Source of the DNA: Ensifer sp. LC11
Lineage (GTDB): Bacteria; Pseudomonadota; Alphaproteobacteria; Rhizobiales; Rhizobiaceae
Length of the DNA: 64,000 nucleotides
Direction: 5' to 3'
Assembly: GCF_001695835.1 (NCBI RefSeq)
Contig: NZ_MBSO01000012.1
Span: forward strand, 372,001-436,000
Under the pieces are notes generated by a model. That model searched no databases. It was given only the letters and a program-made list of their open reading frames with translations, and was not told the origin of the DNA. This document shows, one piece after another, positions 7,364-44,741 of this stretch. The position numbers and the translations under genes were made by a program. How positions within the stretch are numbered: the stretch's first letter is position 1; every line of letters begins with the position of its first letter.

Positions 7364-9199
7364 TCAGCGTGAAAGCGCTGCCGTTGCGGTCTTCAGCCAG
7401 TCGCGGGTTTCGTCGCTGGCCAGCAGCGGCATCAGCTTTTCGCGTGTCTCGGCATGGTAGGCGTTGAGCCAGTCGAGCTCCTCATCCGTCAGCAGCGCCG
7501 GCAGCACGAGGCGGCGGTCGATCGGGCAGTAGGTGATGGTATCGAAGCCGAGCATCGGCAGGTCGCCGCCGTCGACCATCGTTGCCGGCTGCACCACGAT
7601 CAGGTTTTCAATGCGGATGCCGAAGGCGCCGGGGCGGTAGTAGCCGGGCTCGTTGGACAGGATCATGCCGGGCAGCAGTTCCTGTGTTGCAAGACGGGCG
7701 ATGCGCTGCGGGCCTTCATGCACCGAGAGATAGGAGCCGACGCCGTGGCCGGTGCCGTGGGCATAGTCGGCGCCGGCCTTCCAGAGCGCGATGCGGGCCA
7801 AGGGGTCGAGATCGACGCCGCGCGAACCCGTGGGGAAACGAGCCGTGCTGATCGCGATCATGCCCTTCAGCACCAGGGTGAAGAAGCGCTTCTGTTCCTC
7901 GGGAACTGCGCCGATCGCGACCGTGCGGGTGATGTCGGTGGTGCCGTTGATGTATTGCGCACCGGAATCGATCAGGAACATGGTGCCCGCTTCGATCGCC
8001 TGATCGGTGGCGGTGGTGACGCGGTAGTGCATGATCGCCGCATGGGCGCCGGCGCCGGAGATCGTGTCGAAGGAGATGTCCTTCAGCGGGTTCTGCATCC
8101 GCTCGCCGACGGTGGCGCGGGCGGCTTCAAGTTGGTTCGTGGCGCCGATCTCGGTGACCGTGCCGGGCTGCTGCCTGTCCAGCCAGGCGAGGAACTCGAC
8201 CATGGCGGCACCGTCCTGCAGGTGGGCGCGGGTCGAACCGTCGATTTCGGCCTTGTTTTTCTGGGCGCGGGGCAGGCGGGCCGGGTCGACCGCTTCGACC
8301 ACCTTGCCGCCCTTGGAGCGGATCAGCTCGGAGATGGCAAAGGAGGCGAGATCCGGGTCGATCATTACGGACGTGCCGGCAGCGCCCAGCGCGGCCAAGC
8401 GATCGTCGAAAGTCGCGGGCGCGACGATGTCTGCGATCTGGGTGAGATAGGCTTCCTGCTCGATGCCGGTCTTGCGCTTGTCGAGGAAGAGTTCGGCGCG
8501 GCCGTCGGCATGGATGATGGCGCGGGCGAGCGGATGCGGCGTGTGCGGCACATCGCTGCCACGGATGTTGAAGGTCCAGGCGACGGAGGAGGGGTCGGTC
8601 AGGATGACGGCGCTGGCGCCTGCCTTGTCGAGGCCGGCAGCGATCGTCGCGATCTTGTCCTTGGCAAGCGCACCGGCATGTTCGATGGGCTGAATGGTGA
8701 CCTTGCCGAGCGGAGCTGCGGGACGGTTCGCCCAGATCCGGTCGAGCGGGTTATGATCGAGGAAGACGAGGGAGCCGCCGATGACGGCCAGCGCCTTTTC
8801 CAGCCGGCGCACTTCGGCGCCGGTGTGCAGCCACGGGTCGATGCCGAGCTTGAAGCCTTTGGCCCCATGGTTCTCCAGCCAGAGATGCGGCGGCTCGCCG
8901 ATGAGATCGCCACCGGTGAAAACGCTGCCGTCGACCTGTTCCTTCAGCTGCGTGACGTAACGTCCGTCGACAAAGACGACCGCTTCACGCTGCGTGATGA
9001 GGGCGATGCCGGCCGAACCGGTGAAGCCCGTCAGCCAGGAAAGGCGCTCGGACGAGGCAGGCACATACTCGCCCTGGAATTCGTCGGCGCGCGGCACGAG
9101 AAAGCCGTCGATGCCAAGGGCCGCGAAGGAGGCGCGCAGGGCTTCGGTGCGCTCCTTGCCGAATTGCGGCGTGGAGGTGACTTCAAAAGACTGAAACAT
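7364..9199 (-). CDS. pepP: aminopeptidase P (Xaa-Pro aminopeptidase, M24B)
   Basis: A 611-aa dimetal peptidase removing N-terminal residues that precede proline. The long form contains two creatinase-like N-terminal domains (DEFQGEYVPASSERLSWLTG near residue 40, and a second around 180-320) and a C-terminal pita-bread catalytic domain. The metal ligands are visible: Asp in FLIDSGAQY, Asp in GTTDITRT, His in GTGHGVGSYL, Glu in LSNEPGYYR and Glu in FGIRIENLIVV. It is complete. Its 3' end faces the small exported gene; its 5' side faces the sRNA region. A general peptide-turnover role is known for the family. Confidence 0.97.
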   Translation of the reverse strand: MFQSFEVTSTPQFGKERTEALRASFAALGIDGFLVPRADEFQGEYVPASSERLSWLTGFTGSAGIALITQREAVVFVDGRYVTQLKEQVDGSVFTGGDLIGEPPHLWLENHGAKGFKLGIDPWLHTGAEVRRLEKALAVIGGSLVFLDHNPLDRIWANRPAAPLGKVTIQPIEHAGALAKDKIATIAAGLDKAGASAVILTDPSSVAWTFNIRGSDVPHTPHPLARAIIHADGRAELFLDKRKTGIEQEAYLTQIADIVAPATFDDRLAALGAAGTSVMIDPDLASFAISELIRSKGGKVVEAVDPARLPRAQKNKAEIDGSTRAHLQDGAAMVEFLAWLDRQQPGTVTEIGATNQLEAARATVGERMQNPLKDISFDTISGAGAHAAIMHYRVTTATDQAIEAGTMFLIDSGAQYINGTTDITRTVAIGAVPEEQKRFFTLVLKGMIAISTARFPTGSRGVDLDPLARIALWKAGADYAHGTGHGVGSYLSVHEGPQRIARLATQELLPGMILSNEPGYYRPGAFGIRIENLIVVQPATMVDGGDLPMLGFDTITYCPIDRRLVLPALLTDEELDWLNAYHAETREKLMPLLASDETRDWLKTATAALSR

Positions 9200-9489
9200 G
9201 GGGGAATTCCGGTAGATTGAGCGGCAAACCGCGGGAAAGATGGCGCCATGTTAGCGGAAATCGCCCTTGCCGGGAAAGAGGCGATATCCTGTAAGCAGCC
9301 GTGGCCCACGGTTCTCACAATGCTTGCGGTTGTGGGCCGCCAGGGAGAGCAATTGCTCATTCATCATACATATGCGCTCAGTGCATGGCACCCATGCTCA
9401 GAAGTCTCTATCTCTATCGGAATAATAGTTTATAAGCCGCCTCAACGAACACGGACGAACATCCGGTGGTTCAAAAGACTGCGGTTCCG

Positions 9490-9641
9490 AGAATAGTTGG
9501 TCATTCTGTTCTCCTCCTCCCTCAAGGGTGGCCAATTTCGGAACGGTAGACGCCCGCTCGAGCACTCCTCCTCCTCAGGCTCGCGGGCATGGTTGGTCAC
9601 AAGCCAGCCAGCAGGCGATGCCCCTGGCATCGCCTTTGTTT
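9490..9641 (+). ncRNA. trans-acting sRNA of the alpha-r14 / CuckooS type (anti-Shine-Dalgarno loops)
   Basis: No protein gene fits here, but the + strand folds into three hairpins. Hairpin 1: AGTTGGTCA (9495-9503) with TGGCCAATT (9529-9537), loop containing CTCCTCCTCC. Hairpin 2: GCCCGC-GAGC (9552-9563) with GCTC-GCGGGC (9579-9588), loop ACTCCTCCTCCTCAG. Hairpin 3: a Rho-independent terminator at 9614-9641. Two exposed CU-rich anti-Shine-Dalgarno loops plus a terminator are the hallmark of the rhizobial alpha-r14 family (S. meliloti NfeR1) and of CuckooS RNAs, which block ribosome-binding sites, often of transporter mRNAs. The 5' end is uncertain; transcription could begin up to about 50 nt earlier, near TTTATAAG at 9429. 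Confidence 0.72.
9614..9641 (+). terminator. terminator of the alpha-r14-type sRNA
   Basis: GGCGATGCC (9614-9622) and GGCATCGCC (9626-9634) form a perfect 9-bp stem with a 3-nt loop, followed by TTTGTTT. Confidence 0.85.
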
Positions 9642-9643
9642 CG

Positions 9644-9684
9644 AAAGGCCGCCCGTCATGATAGACGTGGCGGCCTTTTCGTTT
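9644..9684 (+). terminator. second strong terminator in tandem
   Basis: AAAGGCCGCCCGTC (9644-9657) pairs with GACG-t-GGCGGCC (9664-9675), followed by TTTTCGTTTTT. It lies only 3 nt beyond the sRNA terminator T-tract, so it is either a backup terminator or the end of a second overlapping transcript. Confidence 0.75.
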
Positions 9685-9711: not shown

Positions 9712-9757
9712 GCCCCTCACCCTAACCCTCTCCCCGCAGGCGGGGCGAGGGGACGTG
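9712..9757. repeat. RIME-like palindromic repeat (family C, copy 1)
   Basis: Contains GCCCCTCACCCTAACCCTC then CCCCGCAGGCGGGG, the core shared by the copies at 9848, 11751, 11889, 54053, 56325 and 56513. No coding content is seen. Confidence 0.7.
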
Positions 9758-9847
9758 TCCGATTGCTCGCCCTCAGCGAGGCGCGTTGGCATCCGATGCG
9801 GCGGTCGGCACTGACTGGCATGATTGAGTGGGAGAGCGCCGCAAAAT

Positions 9848-9894
9848 CCCTTCGCCCCGCGTGCGGGGAGAAGGTGCCGGCAGGCGGATGAGGG
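9848..9894. repeat. RIME-like palindromic repeat (family C, copy 2, inverted)
   Basis: CCCTTCGCCCCGCGTGCGGG followed by GAGAAGGTGCCGGCAGGCGG and ATGAGGG, the reverse orientation of the family C core. Further partial matches extend to about 9945. It lies just beyond the prmA 3' end. Confidence 0.7.
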
Positions 9895-9982
9895 CGCTCT
9901 CCTCACCGCGTGGATGAGGTGAGCTCCCCCCACGGCGCGGATGAGGGGCAGCGTCAATAGGGCAGGCGGATAATCCGCGCCC

Positions 9983-10858
9983 TCACTTCTCCAGATGAAT
10001 TGTCACCCAGCCATTGCGCCAGATGGTGCGGACATGGCGCAGGTGCTGGCCGTTGTAGTGGGCGAGCACTTTCCAGCGCTGTTCGGCGAGAATGCCCGAG
10101 AGGATCACCGAGCCGCCGGGGGCGAGGTTGGCGACGAGTTGTGGCGCCATCTTCATCAAGGGACGTGCGAGGATGTTGGCGATGATGAGGTCGAACGGGC
10201 CGTTGGTGCTGAAGGCGGTCGAATGAAAGCCCGGAGCGGTGGCAAAGGTCATGCCGGTGACGACGCCGTTGACCCGGGCGTTTTCCTCGGCGACGCGGGT
10301 GGCGATCGGGTCGATGTCGGTGGCAAGCACCGGCACGTGCATGAGCTTCCAGGCGGCGATCGCCAAGACGCCACTGCCGGTGCCGAGATCGAGCACGTTC
10401 TTCACGGTGCGGGTGCGCGCGACGGAAGCGAGCACTTCGAGGCAGCCGGCTGTCGTGCCGTGATGGCCGGTGCCGAAGGCCTGGCCGGCATCGATCTCGA
10501 TGGCGATTTCGCCGGTCTTGACCTTGTCGCGGTCGTGCGAGCCGTGCACGACGAAGCGGCCGGCGCGCACCGGCGCCAGGCCCTCGAGCGATTTGGCGAT
10601 CCAGTCGATATCCGGCAGCACTTCGCGCTCGATCGGAAGATGGGCGAAGTCTTGGGCAAGCGCGTCGGTGAGGCGTTCGTTCACGCTCTCCTCGTCGGCC
10701 GTCATCATGTAGATCGAGGCTTCCCAGACGTCGCGCTTCTCGTCGACTTCCGTCGTGCCGATGGCAAAGTCCTCTTCGCCGAAGATCGCGCTCAAGCGAT
10801 CGAGCACGGCTTCCGCCTGCTTCTCGGTGGTGGTGACGAAAAGTCTGATCTCGCTCAA
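9983..10858 (-). CDS. prmA: ribosomal protein L11 methyltransferase
   Basis: A 291-aa SAM-dependent methyltransferase that modifies ribosomal protein L11. It shows the family stretch DAGQAFGTGHHGTTAGCLE (about 122-140), SAM motif I VLDLGTGSGVLAIAAW, the acidic motif II ATDIDPIA, and the IANILARPL catalytic-site motif. The start codon is TTG at 10858, supported by AAGGA about 8 nt upstream; no ATG lies near. Full length for the alpha-proteobacterial form. It stands alone, with family C repeats downstream and a short gap upstream to the SCO1-type gene. Confidence 0.96.
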   Translation of the reverse strand: MSEIRLFVTTTEKQAEAVLDRLSAIFGEEDFAIGTTEVDEKRDVWEASIYMMTADEESVNERLTDALAQDFAHLPIEREVLPDIDWIAKSLEGLAPVRAGRFVVHGSHDRDKVKTGEIAIEIDAGQAFGTGHHGTTAGCLEVLASVARTRTVKNVLDLGTGSGVLAIAAWKLMHVPVLATDIDPIATRVAEENARVNGVVTGMTFATAPGFHSTAFSTNGPFDLIIANILARPLMKMAPQLVANLAPGGSVILSGILAEQRWKVLAHYNGQHLRHVRTIWRNGWVTIHLEK

Positions 10859-44097: not shown

Positions 44098-44239
44098 GAG
44101 CGTCCCGTCTTTCTCGAACTCAATCTTACTTGTCTGCAGCCGGCTATGACATGCTGCCGTCGGCTTTTCATTGCCCGTCTCGATGAGACGAGTCAATTAT
44201 TCAAGCATCTATAGACCATTTCGAAGCGGGGGAGAAGGT

Positions 44240-44557
44240 GAAGGCTTCTGTTGCCAGGTGCCTTCGGACCCCGCCTTACGGTGCTACCCGGAAGGACTTG
44301 ATTTGAAGTGTCGCACCGCGATTAAGCAGCGAGACGTGCTTCAGCATAGTTGTCGTTTGCAACTATAAGTTTAGCCCGATAACGGTGGTACAATGCCGAG
44401 CAAAAAGTCGATCTTTACGCCCTTGTCGATCCTATTTCGCCCCCATCAAAAGCCGATCGCCAAGGATCGGTTTTTGGTGGAGGCGCCGGGTACCGCCCCC
44501 GGGTCCAATGGGTTTATTTCATCGCCCGTTTATTGCCATAGCCGCCCGAAGACGGCA
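44240..44557 (-). ncRNA. ssrA: tmRNA, two-piece permuted form
   Basis: The minus strand encodes the tag ANDNYAEARLAA plus stop at 44360-44322, the rhizobial ssrA proteolysis tag. The coding RNA begins GGGGGCGAAATAGGATCGAC at 44444, the conserved tmRNA 5' end. The acceptor RNA lies upstream and ends CGCCTCC-A-CCA at 44475. GGGGGCG (44444-44438) pairs with CGCCTCC (44485-44479) to form the 7-bp acceptor stem, and CCGGG/CCCGG form the T arm. The intervening spacer 44445-44474 folds as CCGATC/GATCGG and is expected to be removed. The outer ends (about 44557 and 44240) are approximate. Function: trans-translation, rescuing stalled ribosomes with SmpB. Confidence 0.93.
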
Positions 44558-44563
44558 CCGTTC

Positions 44564-44592
44564 ATATAGGTCTTTCCGGCGCTCAAGAAAAG
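44564..44592 (-). promoter_or_regulatory. likely ssrA promoter
   Basis: On the minus strand, CTTTTC (44592-44587), a 17-bp spacer and CTATAT (44569-44564) give a -10 matching the rhizobial preference CTATAT. Transcription from about 44557 would yield an 83-nt acceptor piece, a reasonable size. Confidence 0.5.
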
Positions 44593-44741
44593 GGGGATGT
44601 GTCGGATATATGACTTTGTCCCGGCCTGCCCGGCGCCGAACTGCCTTGACTTGCCCGGCATCCATGAAAAACTCCCGCTGCTCAACGCGGCCGGCGAAAC
44701 CTGGCTGCCGTTTCGAAAAGCAAAAGCAACCTGGAGGCCTC

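Follow-up and report, generated by a model that had tools for sequence, protein, structure and literature searches.

A predicted anti-Shine-Dalgarno small RNA at a conserved pepP-prmA locus of Ensifer, probably descended from the 3' end of a DUF1127-like mRNA

Anti-Shine-Dalgarno small RNAs (sRNAs) have been described before, as has their association with DUF1127 genes. According to passages of PMC10746234 and PMC7143759, alpha-r14 (ar14) RNAs consist of three hairpins with CCUCCUCCC in each loop. The ar14 RNA of S. meliloti, NfeR1, blocks translation via three redundant loops, with transport-protein mRNAs and ntrB mRNA as targets (passages of PMC10746234, PMC7143759, and PMC8844928). In S. 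meliloti, the NfeR1 promoter is activated by LsrB, which binds TGCA-N6-GCAT at positions -72 to -60 (passages of PMC10746234), and AbcR1 is likewise driven by LsrB (passages of PMC8844928). Cuckoo RNAs (the SmelA075/SmelA099/RS0680a group) have adjacent hairpins with one CCUCCUCCC per loop, three and four hairpins in the members described in PMC3927594 and two in RS0680a. A tie to small protein genes comes from CcsR1-4, which derive from the 3' UTR of ccaF1 (passages of PMC8625941); the association of a DUF1127 gene with a CcsR-like sRNA in Alphaproteobacteria has been labelled CIN1 (passages of PMC10253847). In Brucella, VtlR, a LysR-type regulator of the same kind as LsrB, controls DUF1127 genes and AbcR2 (passages of PMC12595884).

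The locus considered here lies in a window of 64,000 nucleotides from Ensifer sp. LC11. Its flanking genes, named as in the original prediction, are both on the minus strand: pepP (Xaa-Pro aminopeptidase, a 611-aa ORF at 7364-9199), which is the partner of prmA in 94 related tree loci, and prmA (ribosomal protein L11 methyltransferase, a 291-aa ORF at 9983-10858), for which 80 related loci were gathered. The nearest named prmA relatives are those of Ensifer sp. Root278 (97%) and E. adhaerens. Between the two genes, folding predicts an RNA of four hairpins on the plus strand at 9479-9641. The segment 9480-9650 folds at -75.5 kcal/mol (z -4.32), a value equalled by 0 of 200 shuffles, and a putative transcript of ~198 nt at 9444-9641, delimited by the position of a -10 element and by the terminator, folds at -86.2 kcal/mol with a small additional 5' hairpin of four pairs (9452-9465).

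Hairpin 1 (9479-9549) presents the anti-Shine-Dalgarno motif CUCCUCCUCCC in its loop (9511-9521), with a predicted unpaired probability of 1.0. Hairpin 2 (9552-9588) has the stem CCGCUCGAGC/GCUCGCGG, nearly invariant over 29 sequences, and the loop motif CUCCUCCUCCUC (9565-9576), unpaired at 0.92. Hairpin 3 (9590-9610) is a spacer without the motif, and hairpin 4 (9613-9641) is an intrinsic terminator in which a 10-pair stem (9613-9635) is followed by a U-rich tail, TTGTTT. CTCCTCCTC has four occurrences in the 64 kb, where 0.59 would be expected, and three of them fall inside loops 1 and 2. The original prediction had described three hairpins, one of them a perfect terminator, with two exposed CUCCUCC loops and a start at 9490. 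The stable structure, its terminator, and the exposed loops are borne out. The hairpins number four, loop 2 reads CCUCCUCCU rather than CCUCCUCCC (eight of nine letters agree), and hairpin 1 begins at 9479, with a 5' end that conserved promoter elements place near 9444.

Downstream, a second terminator-like hairpin appears at 9644-9678 when 9444-9684 is folded; a terminator scan reports it at 9653-9673 on the plus strand only, although by its symmetry it might also serve as terminator for prmA on the opposite strand. The interval from terminator to prmA holds GC-rich inverted-repeat-like sequence (9720-9960). Intergenic repeats of rhizobia make gap lengths vary, and this sequence may account for the variable gap in Ensifer (519-1184 nt in 28 loci). 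As originally predicted, no protein gene occupies the gap in the window: the longest ATG/GTG/TTG frame between the putative start and the terminator has 27 codons and a GTG start, and it is missing or shorter in several relatives (compared in the 29-sequence set minus L035 and L036). In many relatives a small ORF does lie in the gap (see below).

The hairpin region is strongly conserved. Two CTCCTCCTC motifs, 52-54 nt apart, are found in the prmA-pepP gap of 28 of 28 loci (L034-L060 and L093), of which 27 are named Ensifer or Sinorhizobium and one 'Rhizobiales bacterium'. Across these 28 loci and the window, conservation stays high between roughly 9410 and 9680 and drops after 9690; the ten bases 9510-9519 are identical in all 29 aligned sequences. 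Covariation was assessed in an alignment of 29 sequences, comprising the window and 28 related loci chosen for variety (L104 was left out). Both loop motifs are predicted to be unpaired at 0.79 or more in each of these 29 sequences. Loop 1 has the exact CCUCCUCCC in 22 of 29; loop 2 has UCCUCC in all 29 and CCUCCUCCC in four.

The stems vary in a manner that preserves pairing. RNAalifold finds 27 pairs, of which 12 have changed on both sides, and 98.6% of the cells formed by these pairs and 29 sequences can pair. Cells changed on both sides number 76, compared with 24.9 in shuffles, and 0 of 500 shuffles reach 76. Changes on both sides affect six of seven counted pairs in the outer helix of hairpin 1 and four of ten in the terminator. 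Shifting the partner by one to three columns lowers pairing to 36-45%, a comparison that favours the tested structure because it was derived from the same alignment. G-U cells outnumber A-C cells 45 to 3, which indicates that the RNA is the plus strand. By folding energy, the weaker kind of strand evidence, the plus strand is the more stable one in only 20 of 29 sequences.

A covariance model built from the 29 pepP-prmA sequences (R1) defines the distribution of the RNA. In searches run with stricter filters, so that weak matches are lost, R1 matches 91 of 297 genomes of the host's family at E ≤ 0.001 and 61 of 297 at 50 bits or more, the latter with one match per genome; among 297 genomes drawn from the order, the best match outside the family scores 32.7 bits. 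The best 30 of the 61 loci all adjoin prmA, and pepP lies within the stretch in 29 of these 30. When R1 was applied to 41 named prmA loci outside its seed, 34 matched on the correct strand at 39 bits or more, several of them close relatives of seed sequences. Several non-seed loci have a single UCCUCC motif, that of hairpin 2 (e.g. L062, L068, L073, L076, L078, L082, L083, L095, and L099). In loci of the Allorhizobium/Agrobacterium vitis type (e.g. L073, L095, and L099), hairpin 1 seems to be missing, and a different small ORF (MTSPIRT...) lies between the promoter and hairpin 2. Judged by sequence, the RNA forms a distinct family, present in single copy at a conserved pepP-prmA place, and the earlier description of 'a copy at this location' undersells both this and the apparent past of the locus, in which the RNA was the 3' end of a small protein gene.

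Membership in ar14, as originally proposed, is not borne out by the ar14 covariance model (RF02344), which requires 58.8 bits and gives the window RNA 18.6 (E 0.36 when 661 bases are searched and 0.81 over the whole genome of 6.2 Mb). Four other loci of the same genome pass this model at 116.1, 107.4, 102.6, and 90.1 bits, so the failure is not due to lineage. In the reverse direction, the highest R1 score for these ar14 copies is 15.3 bits, obtained with filters off. Of 13 relatives examined with ar14 and CcsR1, one (L026) reaches 24 bits with ar14 and one (L108) reaches 19.4 bits with CcsR1, both below the cut-offs. The CcsR1 model (RF02791, cut-off 65.3 bits) has no match in the window up to E 10. 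At gathering cut-offs, Rfam reports only tmRNA in the window, a permuted alphaproteobacterial form at 44237-44595 on the minus strand (314 bits). RNAI (25.5 bits), PVT1_4, RsaE, and other weak Rfam matches at the locus fall far under their cut-offs and were rejected.

The likeness to ar14 RNAs such as NfeR1 includes anti-Shine-Dalgarno loops on hairpins, a terminator as last hairpin, a LysR-type box at about -71, and, in Ensifer, a putative stand-alone transcript. Unlike the three-hairpin ar14 layout, the pepP-prmA RNA has two motif loops, the first exact and the second CCUCCUCCU, and its hairpin 3 and terminator are free of the motif; it also keeps to one conserved place per genome and appears to originate in a small protein gene. 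Compared by description with the Cuckoo pattern, it offers two adjacent motif hairpins, one exact and one agreeing in eight of nine letters. AbcR1 and AbcR2 are likewise rhizobial sRNAs with anti-Shine-Dalgarno motifs, and AbcR1 is LsrB-dependent (passages of PMC8844928), but their structure and place differ, and the window RNA has no Rfam match at the gathering cut-off. In the host genome, two true ar14 copies (L002 and L003) stand in tandem ahead of two canonical DUF1127 genes on the same strand (G000:C45:125137-126476).

Members of the ar14/cuckoo family often arise by intragenomic duplication, and the pepP-prmA RNA might be one such extra copy that has diverged. The identical loop motif, the similar promoter layout, and the weak R1 matches to ar14 copies (best 15.3 bits with filters off) are consistent with this origin, which nevertheless appears unlikely given the sub-cut-off ar14 score and the occupation of one conserved place across Rhizobiaceae rather than scattered positions. 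The RNA further has its own conserved hairpin 2 stem, a motif-free third hairpin, and a 5' arm derived from an ORF.

That ORF, of about 57 codons, is present between the same promoter and hairpin 1 in Neorhizobium, Xaviernesmea, Pseudorhizobium, Ciceribacter, Shinella, and others; in these relatives the hairpins come immediately after the stop codon and precede the terminator. The end of the ORF, stop codon included, there supplies the outer 5' arm of hairpin 1, which in Neorhizobium is made up of the codons AGC TAC GTA TTC TGA. The ORF is constrained at the protein level: among 25 equal-length sequences the median dN/dS is 0.19, and pN equals or exceeds pS in 0 of 300 pairs, which are non-independent. 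Pfam and NCBIfam do not recognise the protein. Because hhalign aligns it with an alignment of nine G000 stretches (DUF1127 or weaker PF06568 matches) at a probability of 85.4% (E 5.8e-6), against a best probability of 23.3% among 40 column shuffles, it is termed DUF1127-like here.

The ORF-bearing relatives thus resemble the CcaF1-CcsR1-4 (CIN1) arrangement of Rhodobacter sphaeroides, in which a small DUF1127-type gene is followed by CCUCCUCC hairpins and one terminator (passages of PMC10253847). Differences are that the CcsR1 model stays under its cut-off (19.4 versus 65.3 bits, at L108), that the protein is a distant DUF1127 relative unrecognised by Pfam, and that the ORF is gone in Ensifer. 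A CIN1-type locus was therefore rejected for Ensifer itself, which has neither the ORF nor a DUF1127 match at this place, the arrangement existing in the ORF-bearing relatives.

Several observations point to loss of the ORF on the way to the Ensifer state. The ORF is absent from the Ensifer pepP-prmA gap, PF06568 has no match there up to E 10, and no homologue of the Neorhizobium protein is found elsewhere in the host genome (G000) at E ≤ 1. Box and hairpin 2 lie about 350 nt apart in ORF-bearing loci and 181 nt apart in the window, a difference close to the ORF length of 174 nt. In L018, L021, and L025, remnants of the ORF flanks align to the ORF-bearing L020, with a gap in place of the ORF's central part. 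A prmA+pepP tree of 95 loci, rooted with Aurantimonas, includes 40 ORF-less loci, for which Fitch parsimony requires five changes; with nodes under 0.7 support collapsed and only losses allowed, there are at least four losses. In these counts, eleven loci of the Allorhizobium/A. vitis type whose ORF is different or unclear are scored as ORF-bearing; support is low at some nodes, with 0.12 at that of Ensifer. Ensifer and at least three other lineages appear to have lost the ORF and kept the RNA. Among other ORF-less genomes, G103 (3.5e-7) and G100 (4.3e-6) contain unlinked ORF homologues, so the protein there may have moved or have a paralogue; in G075, G106, G094, G138, and G057, no match is better than E 0.09. 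The opposite of the Ensifer state is seen in L092, L097, L098, L102, L103, and L106, which keep the ORF and promoter box and have neither an R1 match nor such a hairpin pair. The two halves of the locus are therefore separable.

The six hairpin-less loci, and the position of the hairpins between stop codon and terminator in other relatives, would also fit a regulatory untranslated region that protects or ends the small mRNA and persists in Ensifer as a relic or spacer. Such a role is very improbable, since a relic would decay, whereas in Ensifer nothing has been preserved better than the loops since the ORF was lost (9510-9519, 100% over 29 sequences) and the stems still gain compensatory changes.

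The promoter region is shared by all of these states. Its main element is a LysR-type box, TGC-N7-GCA (T-N11-A), at 9373-9385, a candidate LsrB site. A match to the LsrB consensus GCAT-N3-TG-N3-T (given in passages of PMC8844928) adjoins it on the minus strand at 9385-9397, and a -10-like element, TATAAG, follows on the plus strand at 9431-9436 without a good -35. The box and TATAAG together place the start near 9444, so that the box would lie at -71; judged by site pattern, the ar14-type promoter feature, an LsrB-type box near -72 to -60, is present. The conserved spacing between box and -10 argues for this layout. After three duplicates were dropped, TGC-N7-GCA is present in 94 of 96 prmA-pepP intergenic regions versus 31% of 480 shuffled regions, and an extended form in 86 of 96 versus 1%. 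A loosely defined -10-like pattern starts 57-59 nt past the box in 82 of the 86 extended-box regions. Of 95 relatives, only 22 have the exact LsrB consensus close to the box, and a simple sigma-70 scan of the plus strand reports no promoter.

Two of the four ar14 copies of the host genome have a comparable arrangement. The -10 is located 58 nt past the box in L002 and L003, and in L003 the box lies at -71 from the start of the Rfam match. L004 lacks the box, and L005 has a box without a -10 at that spacing. By chance, the box pattern occurs in 26 of 319 window pieces of 200 nt. LsrB would likely act on the promoter of the pepP-prmA RNA as well.

On the minus strand, a sigma-70-like site directed toward pepP (9391-9363, a 9-of-12 match) overlaps the box, which may therefore also or instead serve pepP; a single box may serve two divergent promoters. 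That the whole conserved block is a pepP leader on the minus strand with a LysR-controlled promoter, as this adjoining site might suggest, is extremely doubtful, because the structure lies upstream of the site and thus outside a pepP leader, the excess of G-U over A-C favours the plus strand, and the terminator tail is on the plus strand.

The fold, the covariation, the conserved place, the promoter spacing, and the presence and loss of the ORF are read directly from the sequences. The explanation that best accommodates them is that the locus probably encodes a stand-alone sRNA of ~200 nt that is activated by LsrB, masks ribosome-binding sites, and descends from the 3' end of a DUF1127-like mRNA; its transcription, LsrB binding, target pairing, and phenotype would be expected on this basis. 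A LysR-type activator, most likely LsrB, would bind the box at 9373-9397 and activate a promoter whose -10 is good and whose -35 is poor. The hairpins of the resulting RNA would present two single-stranded CUCCUCC loops that could pair with the Shine-Dalgarno sequences of target mRNAs and prevent their translation in the manner of NfeR1, and the transcript would end at its own terminator. The ancestor would have been the mRNA 3' end of a small DUF1127-like protein, with the ORF removed in Ensifer and the promoter, hairpins, and terminator retained. The core of the original prediction is supported: the RNA is very likely a trans-acting sRNA that carries two anti-Shine-Dalgarno loops, ends in a terminator of its own, and is of the same functional kind as the ar14 and CcsR RNAs.

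A more tentative proposal, for which the chances are slightly short of even, concerns the ancestral locus. It may have produced a two-in-one RNA, at once a DUF1127-like mRNA and an anti-Shine-Dalgarno sRNA tail. As the last codons and stop of the ORF constitute one arm of hairpin 1, translation and sRNA folding would compete. At least four parallel conversions from coding to non-coding would then have followed, while other lineages kept only the protein.

In open-licence papers, no description was found of this RNA family, its LsrB-type promoter, or the repeated loss of the ORF. For the S. meliloti 1021 orthologue, the main tables and passages of three sRNA catalogues name neither pepP nor prmA. 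Valverde 2008 predicted a candidate, sm11, with upstream ORF SMc01671, orientation < > <, and a length of 99-244 nt, which was undetected by their microarray. The orientation is right, and sm11 could be the pepP-prmA locus; within the open-licence literature, SMc01671 to SMc01673 appear only in Valverde 2008. The RNA itself has thus possibly been published, and what appears new is the LysR-box/-10 promoter layout and the probable origin from a DUF1127-like ORF locus.

Through anti-Shine-Dalgarno sRNAs, rhizobial metabolism and nodulation are linked to stress signals, and LsrB is the regulator of several of these sRNAs. The pepP-prmA RNA would add to them a conserved RNA that resembles the known members, occurs in single copy, and escapes standard models. 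A single place with a single promoter shows three related states: both protein and RNA, RNA alone, and protein alone. Because these states are so closely related, the question of how a small protein gene becomes a regulatory RNA is directly testable here. If the ancestor was indeed a two-in-one RNA, the locus would offer a natural series in which an mRNA becomes a regulatory RNA while its promoter stays unchanged.
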